The notes under the pieces: model-generated
Told to the model about the DNA's origin: nothing
Database searches by the model: none
What the model saw: the letters and a program-made list of their open reading frames with translations, nothing else
DNA from: Manis javanica
Taxonomy: Eukaryota; Chordata; Mammalia; Pholidota; Manidae
Assembly: GCF_040802235.1 (NCBI RefSeq)
Contig: NC_133169.1
Coordinates: 45,887,034-45,951,033 of the forward strand
DNA length: 64,000 nucleotides
Direction of reading: 5' to 3'
Translations under genes and position numbers: made by a program
In this document: positions 3,374 to 54,589 of the stretch, piece by piece
Layout: each line of letters starts with the position of its first letter
How positions within the stretch are numbered: the stretch's first letter is position 1

Positions 3374-4300
3374 TCAGTGACATAAGACCCTGCTGAGTGC
3401 CCCTTTCACCTCTGTGTTCCTCAAGCTGTAGATCATGGGGTTTAGCATTGGGGTGATAACCCCATAGAGCATGGCGATGAGTCTGTCCCTGTCTGGGGAG
3501 TGGTGACTTGAAGAGGGATGGACATAGGTGAAGATGGCTGTGCCATAGAATAAACAGACCACCAGGAGGTGGGAGGCACATTTGGAAAAGGCTTTGCACT
3601 TCCCTTCCACCGACTGGATCTTTAGGATGGTGGATATGATGTATACATAAGAGATGAAGGTGGTTAGGAAGGCACCAATTCCCGAGATACCTGCTACCAC
3701 TAAAACAAGCATTTCTGCCATGTAAGTGGATGAGCAGGAGAGGGCCACCACTGGGGGGATGTCACAGTAGTACTGGTTAACCAGATTGGACTTACAGAAA
3801 GACAGGCGGAAGGTGGACACCGTGTGGAGGAGGGAAATGAGAAACCCTGCTGCCCAGGTCCCAGCTGCCAGCTGGGCACAGCGAGCCTTGGTCATGATGA
3901 GGGTGTAACGGAGGGGGAAGCAGATGGCCACGTACCTGTCATAAGCCATGGCAGCGAGAAGGAAGACCTCAGTCCCCGCCAGGGCCACCAGGAAATAAAG
4001 CTGCAAAGGACAGCCCAGGAAAGAAATGCTGTGATTCCCAGTCAAGAGATTGTCCAGCATCTTGGGGACAGTAGCTGATGGGCAGAATATGTCTAAGAGG
4101 GACAGATTGGCCAGAAAGTAGTACACGTGTGTGTGCAGCGTTTTCTCTATCCCGATGGCCAAGAGAATGGCTCCATTTCCCACCAAAGTGACCTGGTAGG
4201 TGACGGCAAAGACCACAAAGAGAGAGTAGCGAACCTCGGGGAGGTCAGAGAGCCCCGGGAGGACAAAGTGAGTCACGGGGGAGAGATTGTAGCCGTCCAT
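3374..4300 (-). CDS. Class II olfactory receptor, intact (copy A)
   Basis: Single-exon 308-aa odorant receptor, a seven-transmembrane GPCR expected in olfactory cilia coupling through Golf/adenylyl cyclase. The ATG at 4298-4300 is chosen because it gives the normal short N-terminus with an N-glycosylation sequon (N5-L-S) followed by PVTHF; the longer open frame upstream has no ATG and crosses a good splice acceptor. Visible hallmarks: GN in TM1 (41-42), LH-T in the first loop, C97, MAYDRYVAIC at the end of TM3 (DRY 121-123), SCSSTY in the second outer loop, KAFS-CASHL in TM6, NPMIY in TM7 (287-291). Odd residues: LHTHVYYFL instead of the usual LHTPMYYFL, and SKCASHL instead of STCASHL. Length and motifs are normal, so it is probably functional. 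Family is uncertain; the pattern recalls OR13 or OR12 types, clearly different from the OR14-like gene in this window. Close paralogues lie at 20012-20955 and 33885-34811. Confidence 0.93.
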   Translation of the reverse strand: MDGYNLSPVTHFVLPGLSDLPEVRYSLFVVFAVTYQVTLVGNGAILLAIGIEKTLHTHVYYFLANLSLLDIFCPSATVPKMLDNLLTGNHSISFLGCPLQLYFLVALAGTEVFLLAAMAYDRYVAICFPLRYTLIMTKARCAQLAAGTWAAGFLISLLHTVSTFRLSFCKSNLVNQYYCDIPPVVALSCSSTYMAEMLVLVVAGISGIGAFLTTFISYVYIISTILKIQSVEGKCKAFSKCASHLLVVCLFYGTAIFTYVHPSSSHHSPDRDRLIAMLYGVITPMLNPMIYSLRNTEVKGALSRVLCH

Positions 4301-15140: not shown

Positions 15141-17719
15141 GATTCCTGAGAATTAGAACCACGTTCTTAGAATGCTGAGGAGAAAAACCTATGGGAGCCC
15201 AGGTGCCCGGTCATGTTTGATGGTGGAATCTCACCCATTTCTTTACTGTGAAAGAAAATCTCTAATTTTGCCACATTTTTATGGGTTTCTTTTGATTCAA
15301 AGTTATGGTTTCCAAAGAATACATTAATCAAGCAACTTCCAACAAAGGAGAAAGAGGATTTGCGAGGATAGCAGAGAAAATATATAGGCAGTTCCTGATT
15401 ATAATAGGGTACCCATTTCTATCGTCTGAAGTTGTAAAAGGTGAAGGTAACAGAAAAAGCAATTGAAGTTAAAATCTATTTCATAAAGTACAGTAGAAAC
15501 CATGTAAAAACATAAAAAAGACTACAAATCTTCTAATGTATCAGTAGAGAAATTTAAAATAAAAGAAAAATGGTTAACATAGGATGCCCATGTAACTGAA
15601 TTACTTGGGGTAAATGGAAATAGCATGTTTCCAGATGTTTAGAATTTTACAATCACAGTGAGATAGAATAGGAATGCGGGCAAGGGGCTGGATTGTGAAA
15701 CACATTTTTGGCAGTGTAATTTTTATGTTCATGTTTATTTCTTCCTAATGTTTTATCTTGAACAGTTACACAGTTATAGAAAAAATGGAATGGCATAATA
15801 CACCATTTTGCCATAGGACATTTATATTCCCTTTGCCCGAACTCACTAAATGCACACATACATTGTATCATCTGCACACATGTATTTTTAAGTGAATATA
15901 AACTAGTTTTATATTAAATCATTATTCTGATAGAAAACAACTTAAGTATTATACTTTACAGGTTGAAATAAGTTTGAAGTTGTGCTCAATTTGACCTGAA
16001 GGGTTGTAACAAAACTCCATTTGGATAGTCCTAATGATATAAAGATATGTAATAATGAGTAAAGGTTGTGTTAAAGTTTACTTGTCTAGCATGACAAATA
16101 CAAATTTTTACAAGTGGATGGTATAATTATATTTTGAAAGAATGATTTAGCTGATTACAGAAAAAAATGTCATAACATTATTTTACTATTTACTTTTATC
16201 TTGCAATTCAATTCTTGAATATCCTCTGTTAAATTTTACCTAGACAGTTACAACAAACAAAATTTTACTCTTCTGTAATTTAGCTTTCTTTCAACTTACA
16301 TTAAATTGAATAAGTATAAAATAAGTAAGTGCTTATTATTTGAATATTCTAAGTGCCAATTATTAGGGTAGTAACAATTTACATTTATGAAGAAGCCAAT
16401 AATATTCTCCCTAGAGGAATTATTGTTTTTTCTAAGAAAAACATGGGTACTATAAACTATAAAATAAGTTGCAATATTCACACTGTATGTGGGTGAGGAG
16501 TTTGCTTTAGCTTTGGTTCCTCTTTTCCTTTAGGCAGATTATTTTACTTTCCCTTGGTTGAATGTTTTTATTGGGAATGAGCTCTCTGAAAAGGCAATGA
16601 AAGTGTGAAGTAAATTCTGCACTTTTTAAGCTAAAATCAGTAATTTGATATTGGTCAAGATGTTAGTATGGTATTAACATGTATAACTTAGATAAATTAG
16701 TTAAAATTTAATACTAAACAGGGAAGATAAAGGTTGTGGAATTTCTACTATTACAGAGTGTATGTGTAAATAAATGGTTATAATTGTTTAATTTCAGCCC
16801 TAGAAATTGTACATCCACATGCAAGTGTGTATCCAGATCCTCTGGCTGTGAGGTTCTCCTGTATCAAATGGATTCTCTGACCCGAAGACCTAAATGTGTG
16901 TCCTCTAAAATATCGGTCCATGAGACCTAACAGGCAGTAAGGATTCAACAAAGCAGGAAGAGTGATGAAATTTAGGACATTTTTGACTGCTTTAAATGAT
17001 TACTTATCTATCCACTGGGTTAAAGAGGAAGGATATGCATTTCTTTAACAGTAAAACCTTAATAAGAAACACCTTCCTGTTCATAATTTTTAATGTAATT
17101 TATTTGGTATTAATATACTAAAGAAATGATAATATTTTAATTATCTTAAAAAATTCAAGATTTATCAGAGATTATTTTTGCTTGATTAACTAATTTACTT
17201 TTTCTCCATATAGTGGATCCAAGAAATAAACATTTGATAAAAGAACAGAGCTTCAGATGAGTTTCATTTCATTTTAAATGCAGGCAAAGGGGTAAGGTAT
17301 ATAATTAAGAAAGCTGTTCTCTGGATAGTATCCATGAGAGAGCTAATCTTGGCCAATTTAATATTTAATGCCTCAAGACATTAATTTTTATTGTAATAGT
17401 ACCTTTTAAAATTTCATAAATTTACTACAACATTTTCTTAAACTGAATATATAAAGATGTAGAAAACTGAAATTGTGCTTCTGTAGAGCCTTGATCTTTG
17501 TGAACTGACAGGGTCGATGTTTTTTGTTTCACACTTTCTAACTCACTCACTAAACACCCACTGATTGAATAACTATATCCAAGTACATTGTTGTTAGTAT
17601 AACCATTTTCTTTCCTAAATTTCATGACTTTAATATGATGAAAAGACTTTCTATTTTTCTCGTTAGCATGGTACAGATCTTGGCTATGTGAAGGAAGAGT
17701 AAAATCATCCCACAATAAT

Positions 17720-20011: not shown

Positions 20012-20955
20012 AAAGACCCCTGTGGAGAGAGGGGATAGACAGCTACAATCTCATCCCCGTGACTCACTTTATCCTCACGGGGCTCTCTGACCTCCCCGAG
20101 GTGCGCTGTCCTCTCTCTGTGGTCTTTGCCGTCACCCACCAGGTCACCTTGGTGGGAAACGGGGCCATTCTCTTGGCCATCGGAATGGAGAAGAGGCTGC
20201 ACACACCCATGTATTACTTCCTGACCAATCTGTCCCTCTTAGACATATTCTGCCCATCAGCTACCGTCCCCAGGATGCTGGACAATCTCCTGACTGGGAA
20301 TCACAGCATTTCCTTCCTGGGCTGTGCTTTGCAGCTTTATTTCCTGGTGGCCCTGACGGGGACTGAGGTCTTCCTTCTCGCTGCCATGGCTTATGACCGC
20401 TACGTGGCCATCTGCTTCCCCATGCATTACACCTTCATCATGACAAAGGGTCACTGTGCACAGATAGAAGCTGGGACCTGGGCAACAGGGTTTCTCAATT
20501 CCCTCCTCCACACAGTGTCCACCTTCCGACTGTCTTTCTGCAAGTCCAATCGGGTTAACCAGTACTACTGTGACATCCCCCAACTGGTGACTCTCTCCTG
20601 CTCATCCACCTACATGGCAGAAATGCTCATTTTCATCATAGGAAGTATCTTGGCAATCAGTGCCTTCCTAATTACCATCATCTCTTACATTTACATCATA
20701 TCCACCATCCTAAAGATCCAGTCGGTGGAAGAGAAGTGCAAAGCCTTCTCCACATGTGCCTCCCACCTCCTGGTGTCTGTTCTATGGCACAGCCATCTTC
20801 ACCTACATTCGTCCCTCTTCACGTCACCACTCCCCAGACAGGGACAGACTCATCGCCATGCTCTACTGGGTTCTCACCCCAATGCCAAACCCCATGACCT
20901 AGAGCTTGAGGAACACAGAGGTGAAAGGGGCACTCGGCAGGGTCTTATGTCATAG
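20012..20955 (+). pseudogene. Class II olfactory receptor pseudogene (copy B)
   Basis: Homologue of the copy A and C receptors. The codon that is ATG in A is ATA here (20035-20037), and there is no in-frame ATG between it and the upstream in-frame stop, so the exon has no start of its own. The body is well preserved through TM6: GN in TM1, [35 protein letters not shown]. Then a net 5-bp loss near 20771-20781, compared with A, shifts the frame. In the ancestral frame TM7 also carries a TAG at 20900-20902 where A encodes the Tyr of NPMIY. The N-terminal glycosylation sequon is lost (NLI instead of NLS). With at least three independent defects it should not give a working receptor, though it may still be transcribed. 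Confidence 0.9.
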
Positions 20956-21635
20956 ACCATGTTTACATTAATTGTAGCACTAACAGAATGAGTCAATATT
21001 CATTTTAGAATACATTTATAAGAAAAATTTATAGAAAACATTTTTTGACAGAATAAATACCTACATATACACTGTATTTTATAAACATGCAAACATACAG
21101 ATAACTTTAATCATACCTATCTGTACGGTTATATGTCTATCTCTCTCAAAGGGGAACTTAATAATGGATTGTCCCCAAACGGACATTTCCGTAAGTAGCA
21201 TAGAACATTAATTACACTATTATAGGAGGTATAACATGAGCCCGTCTTTAAGTTAACTTGGGTCTTTGTTCATGTCTGTATCCATATCTGTAGCTATACC
21301 TATACTATCTTTATGTTTATATCCACTTTAAATCTATATCTAAACATCTGTCCATGATGTTTGTTTTATTTCTTTGCCTCGTGATAGACTGCCTATGCTG
21401 ATAAGTCTCTAGAATATTATCACTTCCCTTATCCTGTCTTTCAATTTTGGCTTCTACTTATTATATAGATCTCTGCTTTTCTCCTTTTTAAGATAACCCT
21501 GTCCATTCTCAGGACTACCTGTCTCTCCAAGAAGAGGACTTACTCTCTCTATGTCTGATTTAGTTATGTAATTCAGCTCACTATATTATGGTCTTCTTAA
21601 CTTTATATTTTCAAAACTGAAAGCAACATCTTCTA

Positions 21636-29576: not shown

Positions 29577-32534
29577 GAGAAAGGAAAAAATCACGATGGA
29601 CCCCACAAACACAAAGAATTATTAGAGAATACTATGAAAACGTATATGCTCACAAGCTGAAAAACCTATAACAAATGGACAACATCCTAGAAAAATATAA
29701 CCTTCCAAGACTGACCAAGGAAGAAACAGAAAATCTAAACAGACCAATTACCAGGAACGAAATTGAACTGGTAATCAAAAAACTACCCAAGAGCAAAACC
29801 CCCTGGCCAGATGGATTTACCATGGAATTTTATCAGACATACAGAGAAGACGTAACACCCATTCTCCTTAAAGTTTTCCAAAAAATAGAAGAGGAGTGAA
29901 TATTCCCAAACTCATTCAATGAAGCCAGCATAACCCTAATACCAAAACGAGGCAAAGACCGCACCAAAAAAGAAAATTAGAGACCAATATCCCTGATGAA
30001 TGTAGATGCAAATATACTCAACAAAATATTAGCAAACCGAATTAAAATATACATCAAGAGGATCATACACCATTACCAAGTGGGATTCATCCCAGGGATG
30101 CAAGGATAGTACAACATTTGGAAATCCATCAACATCACCCACAACATAAACAAAAAGGACAAAAACCACATGGTCATCTCCATAGACGCTGAAAAAGCAG
30201 TCACAAAATTCAACATCCATTCATGATAAAAACTCTTAACAAAATTCGTATATATAGAGGGCAAGTACCTCAACACAATAAAGGCCATATATGATAAATC
30301 CACAGCCAACATCATACTGAACAGCGAGAAGTTGAAAGCTTTTCCTTTGAGATTGGGCACAAGACAGGAATGCCCACTCTCCCCACTGTTATTCAACATA
30401 GTACTGGAGGTCCTAGCCACAGCAATTAGACAAAACAAAGAAATACAAGGAATCCAGATTGGTAAAGAATAACTTAAACAGTCAGTATTTGCAGATGACA
30501 TGATATTGTTCATAAAAAATCCTAAAGATTCCACTTCAAAACTACTAGAACTAATATTGGAATTCAGCAAAGTTGCAGGATAAAAAATTAACACACAGGA
30601 ATCTGTGGCTTTCCTCTACACTAACAATGAACTAATAGAAAGAGAAATCAGGAAAACAATTCCATTCAGAATTGCATCAAAAAGAATAAAATACCTAGGA
30701 ATAAACCTAACCATGGAAGTGAAAGACTTATACCCTGAAAACTATAAGACACTCTTCAGAGAAATTAAAGAGGACACTAACAAATGGAAACTCATCCCAT
30801 GTTCTTGGCTAGGAAGAATTTTTATTGTCAAAATGGCCATCTGCCTAAAGCAATATATAGATTCAATGCAATCCCTATCAAATTACCAAGAGCATTCTTC
30901 AACGAACTGAAACAAATAGTTCAAAAATTCATATGGAACCACCAAAGACCCCAATTAGTCAAAGCAATCCTGTGAAGGAAGAATAAAGTGGGGGGTGATC
31001 TCACACTCCAACATTAAGCTCTACTACAAAGACACAGTAATCAAGACAATTTGGTACTGGCACAAGAACAGAGCCACAGACCAGTGGAACAGAGTAGAGA
31101 CTCCAGACATTAACCCAAACATATATGGTCAATTAATAAATGATAAAGGAGCCATGGACATACAATGGGGAAATGACAGCCTCTTGAACAGTTGGTGTTG
31201 GGAAAAATGGACAGCTACATATAAGAGAATGAAACTAAACCATTGTCTAACCCCATACACCAAAGTAAATTCAAAAGGGATCAAAGACCTGAATGTAAAT
31301 CATGAAACCATAAAACTCTTACAAAAAAAACATAGGCAAAAATCTCTTGGACATAAACATGAGTGCCATCTTCATGAACATATCTCCTTGGGCAAGGGAA
31401 ACAAAATCAAAAATGAACAAGTGGGACTATATCTAGCTAAAAAGCTTCTGTACAGGAAAGGCCACCATCAATAGAACAGAAAGGTATCCTACAGTATGGG
31501 ACATCCGGTAAAGGGTTGACATCCAAAATATATAAAGAGCTCATGTACCTCAACAAACAAAAAGCAAATAATCCAATTAAGAAATGGGCAGAGGAGCTGA
31601 ATAGACAGCTCTCCAAAGAAGAAATTCAGATGGCCAACAGACACATGAAAAGATGCTCCACATCGCTGGTCATCAGAAAATGCAAATTAAAACCACAATG
31701 AGATATCTCCTCACACCGGTAAGGATTGCCACCATCCAAAAGACAAACAACAACAAATGTTGATGAGGTTGTGGAGAAAGGGGAACCCTCCTACACTGCT
31801 GGTGGGAATGCAAATTAGTTCAACCACTGTGGAAAGCAGTATGGAGGTTCCTCAAAAAGCTCAAAATAGAAATACCATTTGACCCAGGAATTCCATTTCT
31901 AGGAATTTACCCTAAGAATGCAGCATCCCAGTTTTAAAAAGACATATGCACCCCATGTTTATCGCAGCACTATTTACAATAGCCAAGAAATGGAAGCAAC
32001 CTAAGTGTCCATCAATAGATGAATGGATAAAGAAGTTGTGGTACACATACACAATGGAATATTGTTCAGCCATAAGATGAAAACAAATCCTACCATTTGC
32101 AAAAACATGGATGGAGCTAGAGGGTATTATGCTCAGTGAAATAAGCCAGGTGGAGAAAGACAAGTAACAAATGATTTCACTCATATGTGGAGTATAAGGA
32201 CAAAGAAAAAACTGAAGGAACAAAACAGCAGCAGAATCACAGAACCCAAGAATGGATTAACAGTTACCAAAGGGAAAGGGACTGGGCAGGAGGGGTGGGA
32301 AGGGAGGGTTAAGGTGGGGGGAGAAAGAGGGCATTACATTTAGCATGTATAATGTGGGGGGAGGCACAGGGAGGGTGGTGAACACAGATAAGACAAGTAG
32401 TGACTCTACTGCATCTTACTACGCTGATGGATAGTGATTGTAATGGCGTTTGTCCGGGGTCATGCGGAAGGGGGGAGCCTAGTAAACATAATATTCCTCA
32501 TGTAATTGTAGATTAATGATACAAAAAAATAATA
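29577..32534 (+). mobile_element. 5'-truncated L1, 2.96 kb, in copy C
   Basis: Begins inside ORF2 before the reverse-transcriptase core and runs to the 3' end. Visible parts: RT segment with the FADD catalytic motif near 30489-30500, the C-terminal ORF2 region to about 32190, a G-rich 3' UTR at 32270-32360, and a tail ending 'aaaaaaataataaa'. Several frameshifts and stops break ORF2 into open pieces at 29675-29899, 30605-30910, 30995-31474 and 31516-31701. Flanks AAATGACAGG (29567-29576) and AAATGATGGG (32535-32544) fit a diverged target-site duplication, and copy B (near 22335-22345) is the empty site. It belongs to the same young-looking family as 42132-43532. Confidence 0.92.
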
Positions 32535-33884
32535 AAATGATGGGCAGTGGACCTGCCACTTCTATGAAGAGCCCTGGAATGCTGCAGATGATGTATTTCA
32601 GTGCAATGCAGGGCTTTGGAAAATGAAATTGTTTCCAAAGTATGGCAGGAGATGTGCACACAGCCTAGCTGATGTGGTACAAGTATGTATGATGAGGCAT
32701 TCATTTCATAAATATTTGAAAATGACTTGGAAAATTAATTACATCCAGAGAAGGAGTTAACAGGATGTCTTTGAATAATGTAAGAACAATTCAGTAGTGA
32801 TAAAAGAAGGACAGGATGCAGAAAAGAGGAAGAGAGAAGACAGTGAATGCCAAGGAGTGCAAGGGGATCAGAAATGCAGAGAGAAACCATCTGACTGGGG
32901 ACGAAAACTGGAAGGTAATTGGGATCCCCAGGTTGGGGGAAACTATGAAGAAAATGATCCATGATTGTAGATAAAGCTAAGAATCACGTAAGTATTAGTG
33001 AACAGAGAAAATAATCCTATTTCTAGATGTGATAGGAAAAGTAAACAACATAAAATGGAGTGTTCAAGATGCACCATCCCCTCAGAACCAACAGCTGTCT
33101 GATCACACTTAGTCTGTGTGGTTGGGGAAAATTGACACCAAAAATTCATGGCAGCTGATAAGAATATGTGCATGTGTTAAAATATGGTGCTTTTAGTTTT
33201 GAAAATGATAAGTTAAAAAGGCAATAATATAGTGAACTGAATTAGATTACTAAATCACAGATTGAGAAAGTAAGTCCTCTTTTTGGAGACATAGATAGAT
33301 CTGAGAATGGACAGGGTTACCAAAAATGAAGAAAAGCAGAGAAATATACAGTAAGTGGAAGCAAAAACTGACAGACAGGTTGAGTGAAATGATGTTATAA
33401 AAGATTTATTGGTATAGGCAGTCAATCGCAAAAGGCTATTGCCATTTTCAAAAAAATGAAATAAAACAAGTATCAATGGAAATAGATTTAGATAGAGATT
33501 TAAAGTGTAGATAAAAGTAAAGATGATACAGGTATACCTACAGATATGGATATCTATGAATGTGAACAAAAGCCAAAGTTGACTTACATGATGGGCTCGC
33601 GTTATACCTCCTAATAGTGTGATTAATGTTCTCTGCTGCTTATGGAAATGTCTATTTGGGGACAATACATTTTAAATTCCCCTTTGAAAGAGATAGACAT
33701 ATAACCATACAGATAGGCATGGTTACACTTACCTGTATGTTCACATGTTTATAAATTACAATGTATATGTAAGTATATATTCTGTGTCGGTTAAAAATTA
33801 TTTTATATAAATTCTTCTCATCAATGTGTTCTAAAATGAATACAGACTTTTTCTGTTTTACTCTTACACTCAGTGTAAACATGC
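32535..33884. other. Region 3' of OR copy C
   Basis: Duplicon sequence matching 20960-22330 (B, inverted) and 2040-3370 (A). No gene. The first roughly 40-50 bp after the OR stop (to about 33840) resemble A, while the sequence further out resembles B. Confidence 0.6.
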
Positions 33885-34811
33885 TCAGTGACATAAGACC
33901 CTGCCGAGTGCCCCTTTCACCTCTGTGTTCCTCAAGCTGTAGATCATCGGGTTTAGTATTGGGGTGATAACCCCATAGAGCATGGCGATGAGTCTGTCCC
34001 TGTCTGGGGAGTGGTGACTTGAAGAGGGATGAATGTAGGTGAAGATGGCTGTGCCATAGAACAAACAGACCACCAGGAGGCGGGAGGCACATGTGGAGAA
34101 GGCTTTTTGCTTCCCTTCCAGTGACTGGATCTTTAGGATGGTGGATATGATGTAAATGTAAGAGATGAAGGTGGTTAGGAAGGCACCAATTCCCGAGACA
34201 CCTCCTACCACTAAAACAAGCATTTCTGCCATGTAGGTGGATGAGCAGGAGAGGGCCACCACTGGGGGGATGTCACAGTAGAACTGGTTAACCTGATTGG
34301 ATTTGCAGGAAGACAGGCGGAAGGTGGATAACGTATGGAGGAGGGAATGGAGAAACCCTGCTGCCCAGGTCCCAGCTGCCAGCTGGGCACAGCGAGCCTT
34401 GGTCATGATGAGGGTGTAATGGAGCGGGAAGCAGATGGCCACGTACTGGTCATAAGCCATGACAGTGAGAAGGAAGACCTCAGTCACCACCAGGGCCACC
34501 AGAAAATAAAGCTGCAAAGCACAGCCCAGGAAGGAAATGCTGTGATTCCCAGTCAAGAGGTTGTCCAGCATCCTGGGGATAGTAGCTGATGGGCAGAATA
34601 TGTCTAAGAGGGACAGATTGGCCAGGAAGTAATACATGGGTGTGTGCAGCCTCTTCTCCATTCCGATGGCCAAGAGAATGGCCCCGTTTCCCACCAAGGT
34701 GACCTGGTGGGTGACGGCAAAGACCACAGAGAGAGGACAGCGCACCTCGGGGAGGTCAGAGAGCCCCGTGAGGATAAAGTGAGTCACGGGGATGAGATTG
34801 TAGCCGTCTAT
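33885..34811 (-). pseudogene. Olfactory receptor with open frame but no ATG (copy C)
   Basis: The 309-codon frame is open from the splice acceptor to a stop at 33885-33887 and carries GN in TM1, LHTPMYYFL, C97, [14 protein letters not shown] and NPMIY. However, the codon that is ATG in copy A is ATA here (34809-34811), as in B, and no ATG lies upstream in the exon. The DRY motif reads MAYDQY (Arg to Gln at residue 122), a change expected to weaken G-protein coupling, and the N-terminal sequon is lost (NLI). So I call it a probable pseudogene. The alternative is that an upstream exon supplies the start, which would keep the protein expressible. Residues 1-98 are B-like and residues from about 139 on are A-like. 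Confidence 0.75.
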
Positions 34812-34834
34812 CCCCTCTCTCCACAGGGGTCTTT

Positions 34835-37110: not shown

Positions 37111-38596
37111 ATAGGAATCTCTGATGTCATTGTGGGATGATTTTATTCTTTCCACACATAGCCACAGATCTGTACTGTACTTCAGAGAAAAATAGAAGTA
37201 TTTTCATGATATTAAAGTCATGAATTTTAGGGAAGAAAATGATTGCATAACAACAATGTGCTTGGATATCATTATTCAATCAGTGGGTGTTTAGTGAGTG
37301 AATTAAAATATGTGAAACAAAAACCATCTACCCTGTCAGTTCACAAAATCAGAAAGATCAAGGCTCTACAGAAGCACAATTTCAGTTTTCTACATCTTTA
37401 TATATTCAGTTTAAGAAAATGTTGTAGTAAATTTATAAAATTTGAAAACGTACTATTACAGGAAAATTAATGTCTTGAGGCATTAAATATTAAATTGGCC
37501 AAGATTAGCTCTCTCATGGATACTATCCAGAAAACAGCTTTCTTAATTATATACCTTACCCCTTTGCCTGCATTTAAAAAGAAATGAACCTCATCTGAAG
37601 CTCTGTTCTTTATCAAATGTTTACTTCTTGGATTCACTATATGGAGAAAAAGTAAATTAGTTAATCAAGCAAAAATAATCTCTGATAAATCTTGAATTTT
37701 TTAAGATACTTAAAATATTATCATTTCTTTAGTATAGTAATATCAAATAAAATTACATTAAAAATTATGAACAGGAAGATGCTTCTTATTAAGGCTGTAT
37801 TGATAAAGAAGAAATGCATATCCTTCCTCTTTAACCCAGTGGATTGATAAGTAATCATTTAAAGCAGTCGAAAATGTCCTGAATTTCATCGGTCTTCCTG
37901 CTTGTTGAATCCTTACTGCCTGTTAGGTCTCATGGACCGATATTTTAGGGGACACACATTCAGGTCGTTGGGTCAGAGAAATCCGTTTGATGCAGCAGAA
38001 CTTCACAGTCAGAGGATCTGGATACACACTTGCGTGTGGATACACAATTTCTAGGGTTGAAAATAATTATAAGCATTTGTTTAAACACATACTCTGTGAT
38101 AGTAGAAATTGCACACCCTTCATCTTACCATTTTAGTATTCAACTTAACTGATTTATCCAAGGTATACATGTTCATACCATACTAACATCTTGACCAATA
38201 TCAAGTTATTGATTTTGTCTTAAAAAGTGCAGAATTTACTTCACACTTTCATTGTCTTTTCAGAGAGTTCATTCCCAGTAAAAACATTCAACAGAGAGAA
38301 AATAAAATAATCTTCCCAAAGAAAAATAAGAACGAAAATTAAAATAAACCTCACATATACAGTGTGAATATTGCAACTTATTTTAGAGTTTATTATACCC
38401 AATTTTCTCTTAGGAAAAAAATACTTCCCTAGAGAGAATATTATCGACTTCTTCAAAAGTACAAATTCCTACTAACCTAATAATTGGCACTTATAATAAT
38501 AATAGGCACATACTTATTTTATACTTATTCAACTTAATGTAAGTGAAAGAAATCTACACTATAGAAGAGTAAAACTTTTGTTTAGTATAACTTTCT

Positions 38597-53644: not shown

Positions 53645-54589
53645 TCACATGAAGTGAGAGTCTTGGCCATGTGTCCTATGCAGCAATCCCAGCAGAGCCT
53701 GCTTCATGTCCTTGTTCCTGAGGCTGTAGATTACAGGGTTCACTGTTGGAGGTACCACAGTGTAGATCACAGAAAGCAGCCTCTCAGTAACTGAAGGTGA
53801 GTTTGAAGGTGGTTTGAGATCAACAAAACAGGCAGTTATAATAAAAATGGTGACAACAATGAGATGGGGAAGGCATGTAGAGAAAGCTCTAGACTGACTT
53901 TTCGTGGTAGGAATCTTCAGCACCGTGGAGAAAATATAAATGTAAGAGATCATGATACAGATAAAACAAGACATGCCTAAACACATACCTAGTCCAATAC
54001 TCACATAAACTATCATTGATGTTTCAGAGCAGGACATCCTTAGTAATGAGGAGACATCACAGAAAAACTGTGGAATCACATTGGAGCCACAGAAGGGCAT
54101 GGAAAATGTGCCAGCTGTGTACACAGCTCCAAATAACCCCCCAGTAACCCAGGAAACAGCAGCCATCAGGGCACAGGTGCCACTACTCATGAAGACCTCA
54201 TAGTGCAGGGGACAGCAAATCGCCACATAGCGGTCATAGGACATGGCAGTGAGCACAAATATCTCACCTGCTGAAAAGGAAGTCATTAAGAGTACTTGGG
54301 AAGCACATCCTAAAATGGAAATTGAAGTGTTGTGAGTTAGGTTGTTGACAATGAATTTTGGGATTGGGACAGACACGAGGAAGACATCCAGTAAGGACAA
54401 ATTCTTCAGGAAGAAGTACATGGGTGTTTGTAGCTGCAGGTCTAGGGTGATGAGAGTAATGATCAGAAGGTTACTCATTATAACAGCCAGGTAAACCACT
54501 AGGAAGAGCACACCGTGTACAATCTGGAGCTCCCAGACTTCAGAAAACCCCAGAAGAAAAAATACTGTTACAAAGGTGACATTGGCCAT
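53645..54589 (-). CDS. OR14-like olfactory receptor, intact
   Basis: Single-exon 314-aa class II odorant receptor. ATG at 54587-54589 gives a short N-terminus with an N-glycosylation sequon (N3-V-T), then FFLLGFSE. Family marks of OR14: GFSEVWELQ, MYFFLKNLSLLD (57-68), PMFCG-type second outer loop (FSMPFCGSNV) and FFCDVSSLLRMSC, KSQSRAFSTCLPHL in TM6, TVVPPTVNPVIYSLRNKDMK in TM7. DRY at 119-121 (MSYDRYVAIC), C95 in the first outer loop. Small oddities: SN instead of GN in TM1 (39-40) and LQTPMY instead of LHTPMY. Frame and length are normal, so it is likely a functional receptor. It is not part of the triplicated unit and shares only general OR similarity with the three copies. Exact orthologue not assigned. 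Confidence 0.95.
   Translation of the reverse strand: MANVTFVTVFFLLGFSEVWELQIVHGVLFLVVYLAVIMSNLLIITLITLDLQLQTPMYFFLKNLSLLDVFLVSVPIPKFIVNNLTHNTSISILGCASQVLLMTSFSAGEIFVLTAMSYDRYVAICCPLHYEVFMSSGTCALMAAVSWVTGGLFGAVYTAGTFSMPFCGSNVIPQFFCDVSSLLRMSCSETSMIVYVSIGLGMCLGMSCFICIMISYIYIFSTVLKIPTTKSQSRAFSTCLPHLIVVTIFIITACFVDLKPPSNSPSVTERLLSVIYTVVPPTVNPVIYSLRNKDMKQALLGLLHRTHGQDSHFM

Follow-up and report, generated by a model that had tools for sequence, protein, structure and literature searches.

The window, i.e., the whole stretch of 64,000 nucleotides analyzed (contig C14, 45.89-45.95 Mb, in a 2.56 Gb genome of 63 contigs), contains three close olfactory receptor (OR) copies, A, B and C (Table 1), which alternate in orientation and sit within larger inverted duplications, with A and C spaced 30 kb apart; a distant OR is also present at 53645-54589. 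Copies A and C were scanned against profile PF13853 (Pfam 7tm_4, the seven-helix domain) and both matched (6.2e-52 and 6.4e-50, respectively). Copy B shows a 5-bp deletion near 20774 and a TAG near 20900, in the register of A and C. OR function needs a usable start codon and an intact arginine in the DRY motif; A begins with ATG, while both B and C have ATA at this position and C also has Gln in place of the DRY arginine. Because its start codon is missing, C is probably a pseudogene. The match between B and C is continuous and without rearrangement on both sides of the exon, and the flanks thus keep their order (i.e., no crossover).

Table 1. Coordinates of the OR copies and tracts (positions in the window) and of the further A-B-C units (Mb on contig C14)
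Feature	Position	Strand or orientation	Description
OR copy A	3374..4300	-	308 codons, ATG start; A-type flanks (flank tree)
OR copy B	20035..20955 (end approximate)	+	start codon ATA; pseudogene; B-type flanks
OR copy C	33885..34811	-	308-codon open frame, start codon ATA; C-type flanks; very probable mosaic
3' tract of C	33861..34446	-	A-side sequence within C-type flanks
5' tract in C	34573..34828	-	donor segment for the 5' tract in B; contains the lost start codon
5' tract in B	20018..20273	+	recipient: C-type sequence within B-type flanks; positions mapped via the C-B alignment
A-B-C unit 2	43.41-43.44 Mb		L012, L014, L009
A-B-C unit 3	44.87-44.90 Mb	reversed	L010, L045, L011
A-B-C unit 4	47.79-47.82 Mb	reversed	L038, L015, L016

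Two further observations were made on these copies and their surroundings. Among the 40 copies of the family described below, the codon for the DRY arginine (C 34448-34446) is CGG in 20, CAG in 10 and TGG in 3, and is likely a CpG hot spot at which the motif has been broken repeatedly; the idea that the CAG codon of C was made at a breakpoint was dropped, as CGG is the commonest codon and CAG recurs across copies. In the C arm, the match to B is interrupted at 29580-32530 by an element that we take, from its open reading frames, to be L1-like; the BLAST segments have a 17-bp overlap in B, and a clean target-site duplication was looked for at this element and none was seen.

In a three-way alignment of A, B and C (about 5 kb), the flanks of B and C differ by 15.6%, as compared to about 25% for both A-B and A-C; by their flanks, B and C are sisters. 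Singleton sites were classified according to whether A alone (a), B alone (b) or C alone (c) differs, and the flanks yielded a:b:c counts of 524:231:240. The counts in the 3' tract were 19:50:21 (P about 1.6e-11 as compared to the flanks), and third codon positions together with the 3' UTR showed the same shift (a 11, b 22, c 11; P = 9e-5). The best A-C segment was C 34446-33861, in which A-C was favored at 50 of 65 two-way sites, and its log-likelihood gain of 28.8 was reached in none of 500 shuffles (shuffle maximum of 12.4). At third positions, A alone differs at 11 of 83 sites of the 5' part but at 8 of 187 sites of the 3' part, a decrease with P = 0.017; the corresponding drop in A-C differences, from 11 of 83 to 16 of 187, was not significant (P = 0.27). 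When the variable sites were segmented with a three-state hidden Markov model, the A-C-like state was assigned to C 34581-33777 and also to two short non-coding patches (35984-35951 and 33163-33012). The second of these patches is near a CA repeat in B, which alone differs at 20 of 44 variable sites there, and may represent an alignment effect.

The 5' part of the exon departs from the flanks in its own way. Singletons in the 5' tract were distributed 48:6:2 (P = 6e-6 as compared to the flanks), B and C differ at 4 of 271 sites in this part of the exon versus 544 of 3481 in the flanks, and the two copies share an identical run of 182 bp (C 34804-34623), the longest run among 2000 shuffles being 91. 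The three-copy tests thus indicate that the switch in C is real and that the 182-bp identity between B and C is a second real anomaly. An initial annotation, made from the letters of the window, had proposed that C switches its nearest relative along the exon, had placed the breaks between 34397 and 34520 and near 33840, and had named a sliding nearest-neighbor comparison as a check; the switch is present and the ends of the best A-C segment match those breaks. Its residue counts were close for residues 1-98, where C matches B but not A at 14 sites and A but not B at 2 (about 13 and 2 had been claimed), and pointed the right way for residues 139-308, where C matches A but not B at 25 sites and B but not A at 5 (about 16 and 3 claimed). 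One weaker part was the A-like appearance of C just past the stop, where few sites are available (a 3, b 6, c 3).

As protein outgroups we used five PDB receptor sequences and the distant OR of the window; an outgroup was also sought in viral contigs, which gave 11 pattern matches and no relative. At the 25 sites in residues 139-308 where C equals A against B, the outgroups favored the shared state at 10 sites and B's state at 10 when scored by identity, with 5 undecided, and 14 and 10, respectively, when scored by BLOSUM. When change in B only was simulated, B's state was favored at 12-15% (identity) or 17-19% (BLOSUM) of the decidable sites, from which the observed split differed significantly (P = 4e-5 to 2e-4 and P = 0.003 to 0.009, respectively). 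With B's state being the old one at 10 of 20 sites, this comparison, also called for by the initial annotation, spoke against fast change in A and B alone. The splits at B-only sites (10:10) and C-only sites (9:2) differed in the same direction, although not significantly (P = 0.13). A weak lean towards transfer from A into C was seen with three copies (the proportion of bootstraps at or below the expectation for C into A was 0.009 for all sites and 0.125 for third positions), and was superseded by the test with 40 copies.

A genome search, with 40 of 360 candidates scored, identified at least 40 copies of the family, each on C14; the 37 copies outside the window were taken with their flanks and aligned together with A, B and C. 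The flank tree comprised 21 chosen copies of the 40, the 5' trees 20 chosen copies (L038, in which most of the 5' half is absent, was left out), the 3'-tract tree 39 copies (all but L045, whose 3' half is broken) and the upstream-flank tree 37 copies (all but L034, L038 and L042). Counts of fixed sites leave out gapped sites and sites not fixed within a group. SH-aLRT values were 95 or more for 16 of the 18 inner branches of the flank tree, which placed A with L016, L011 and L012 (3-5% from A) and then L027 (20%); B with L013, L014 and L015 (5-6% from B) and a more distant outer trio of L019, L023 and L028; and C with L009, L010 and L038 (3-4% from C), L021 (6.7%) and L035 and L041 (10%). In the upstream-flank tree, L045 adjoins B as its nearest relative (support 100/98). 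The A-B-C unit was found four times on C14, including the one in the window.

In the 3' tract, the four C-types (C, L009, L010 and L038) differ from the four A-types (A, L011, L012 and L016) by 4.9-8.7%, versus 23.5-25.5% in the flanks, while they differ from L035 and L041 by 13.6-14.9%, versus 8.7-10.2% in the flanks. Fixed sites at which the C-types agree with the A-types rather than with L035 and L041 number 31:3 in the tract and 46:451 in the flanks (P about 1e-25); taking the outer B trio as a second, independent comparison group gave 16:3 and 90:274, respectively. Those common to the C-types and A-types span 34308 to 33863. Using groups from the flank tree and tract ends drawn from the same data as those tested, a 39-copy tract tree with the C-types held with their flank sisters was rejected (log-likelihood lower by 69; AU P = 2.6e-5), as was one with the C-types held within the whole B+C flank clade (P = 0.003). 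The A-side copy L027 differs from C by 8.2% in the tract and by 26.8% in the flanks; as L027 is near C in the tract only, the shift occurred in C, towards the A side. The other C-types differ from C by 2.4-3.9% in the tract and 3.0-3.9% in the flanks and, since all four carry the tract, the event is older than the triplet duplications. Tract 1 thus entered the C-type ancestor from the A side before the triplets multiplied, and the direction that the initial annotation had left undetermined can be determined by comparison with the family. The conversion between A and C that it had proposed holds for A-type and C-type sequence, but not for the particular A and C of the window.

The donor can be narrowed to the A side of the tree. 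Within this group, the backbone (i.e., the order of A, C, L027 and others) had bootstrap values of 27-34 and the four C-types were joined at 76/51; with branches this weak, the sequence may have come from an A-side copy that is extinct or absent from the sample. A single clade of A-types, L027 and L025 in the tract was not rejected (P = 0.45), yet is not the best tree, and an exclusive clade of A-types and C-types was 9.9 log units below the best tract tree and not rejected (P = 0.15). In the 3' tract, B, L014 and L015 (B 20400-20980) are likewise placed on the A side and apart from their outer flank sisters, and the ancestral state of B and C therefore rests on the outer copies. Holding these three with the outer trio was not rejected (AU P = 0.146), so that an earlier conversion of the B-types is possible, but not significant. 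From three copies, C 34162-34029 had looked B-like (a 9, b 3, c 6), as if the tract were patchy; in the two bins covering this sub-block (34250-33951), C differs from L011 by 4.0-4.7% and from L035 by about 18%, and the sub-block is therefore not a break in C.

One alternative would dispense with conversion altogether: the 3' half of pseudogene B and the 5' half of A would have evolved fast, with selection on the exon accounting for the rest. Rates may well differ, given that B is broken and that A and C have changed at conserved OR positions, and the part of the three-copy test that is free of B is moderate (a 19 versus c 21, P = 0.006; P = 0.068 for third positions and UTR); the outgroup comparison of B-only and C-only sites is non-significant. 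We nevertheless consider this explanation very unlikely, as the switch is also seen at third positions and in the UTR, simulated change in B alone makes B's state old at far fewer than half of the sites, and the grouping found in the flanks is rejected for the tract both by the 39-copy tree and by the fixed-site counts. That the A and C of the window exchanged sequence recently, as the likeness of these two neighbors in the tract would suggest, is scarcely credible, as the tract is shared by L009, L010 and L038, which are no further from C there than in the flanks.

A reversed polarity, in which the A-, B- and C-types keep the old 3' end and L035, L041, L019, L023 and L028 had theirs replaced from another lineage, appears improbable. 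The A-side placement of B, L014 and L015 would fit it, as would the fact that, in the 3' tract, six copies with other flanks (L018, L024, L029, L032, L043 and L044) cluster with the outer B and C copies (support 93/91); the upstream flanks of these six group with L026 and L030 (94/99) and fall weakly in the A half of the tree. Such a polarity, however, requires separate replacements in two flank lineages. Moreover, B, L014 and L015 differ from the A-types by 9.6-12.7% in the tract, more than the C-types do, whereas both are about 24-25% from them in the flanks; as the C-types are nearer to the A-types than B, L014 and L015 are, a transfer between A and C is needed even under reversed polarity. 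We thus retain a transfer with the A side as the source and the C-type ancestor as the recipient. The six copies are not explained by a simple history of two tracts and suggest more exchange within the family.

The initial annotation had read the 5' part of the C exon as B-like background; C is indeed near B there, but this part includes a second conversion, from C into B. At C 34850-34701, B differs by 1.3% from C, 9.3% from L014 and 12.0% from L015, whereas just upstream B differs by 9.4% from C and by 4.7% and 4.8% from L014 and L015, respectively. Fixed sites at which B agrees with the C-types rather than with L014 and L015 number 10:2 in the core (34850-34551), versus 31:394 in the flanks, and run from 34828 to 34573, a length of about 255 bp. 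L045 was absent from the B sisters in this main test and was added in a later recount: the counts were 13:2 (versus 30:294 upstream) with L045 alone as the B sister, 6:1 (versus 2:267) with L014, L015 and L045, and 7:1 (versus 4:252) with L013, L014 and L015. In the core tree, B grouped with the C-types (99/99) and its placement with its own sisters was rejected (AU P = 0.00051), a rejection that needs the 300-bp core, chosen after the profile had been seen; the same placement was not rejected when all 495 columns of the 5' segment were used (AU P = 0.126).

The codons at the start of the exon follow the same division. Only B, C, L009 and L010, i.e., 4 of the 40 copies, have Ile7 (ATC), and an ATA start is present in 5 of 40 (these four and L043); L038 is without this region. 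An ATG start and ACC at residue 7 are kept in L013, L014 and L015 as well as in L021, L035 and L041, while L045 has GTG and ACC, respectively. Tract 2 appears to have brought the ATG-to-ATA and Thr7-to-Ile changes into B from C, and this 5' event is younger than the 3' tract. It is likely that a start-codon loss from the C-type stem was written into the neighboring B by conversion in one of the four triplets, i.e., that pseudogenisation spread by copying within the OR cluster.

Two further candidate conversions were noted. L013 and L021 (42.21-42.24 Mb on C14) pair in the 3' tract on the A side (100/99); in the region matching C 34446-33861, L013, which has B-type flanks, shares 42 fixed sites with the C-type L021 versus 14 with the B-types, as compared to 17:344 in the flanks, and a third conversion is likely here. 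A non-coding stretch (17059-17540 in the B arm, 37304-37792 in the C arm) was the strongest B-C-rich segment in the three-copy scan, with about 94-98% identity against a background of about 85%, and probably marks another conversion, in this case outside the OR exons.

The nearest relatives of the 3' tract differ from those of both of its flanks, the pattern by which ectopic conversion is recognized, and we consider C very probably a start-less mosaic OR copy produced by ectopic (interlocus) gene conversion in three steps. About 0.4-0.6 kb in the C-type ancestor, spanning the exon's 3' half and reaching a few tens of bases beyond the stop, would have been overwritten by sequence from an A-type copy or from a near relative on the A side; the tract boundary lies close to the limit of exon similarity, which would fit the need of heteroduplex for well-matched DNA. 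The A-B-C unit would then have been copied to four places on C14, with the mosaic in each C-type. Later, and in the unit of the window only, about 255 bp of the 5' exon end of C would have been transferred to B together with the start-codon loss. The alignments and trees show the tracts, the copies that share them and their polarity; the molecular route could be break repair by copying from an inverted neighboring paralogue. A putative non-reciprocal transfer confined to the exon, with conserved flanks and inverted neighbors, is the pattern that such repair would leave.

In human CYP21A2 and CYP21A1P, conversion from pseudogene to gene copies the defect of one paralogue into its neighbor. The transfer from C to B resembles this system, but differs in that the recipient B is broken elsewhere too (the 5-bp deletion and TAG). 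For mammalian ORs, section 8 of the review PMC1995454, citing Sharon et al. 1999, describes how conversion and recombination make mosaic sequences in duplicated clusters, and states that these processes might help revive OR pseudogenes and that pseudogenes may take part; the portion of PMC10463633 considered adds nothing on OR exon mosaics. As OR conversion is already accepted in that review, the process reported here is not new, and the likeness to the clusters described there lies in mosaic receptors that arise from exchange between paralogues. What is unusual here is that four units serve as replicates and that a start-codon loss was passed between copies: one tract is readable in four units, so that the direction and order of two conversions can be read from one genome. 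A tree of the whole OR exon here mixes at least two histories. The four units show a start-codon defect moving between neighbors and, if the proposed spread of pseudogenisation is true, they represent a natural replicate experiment on conversion moving working and broken receptor segments.
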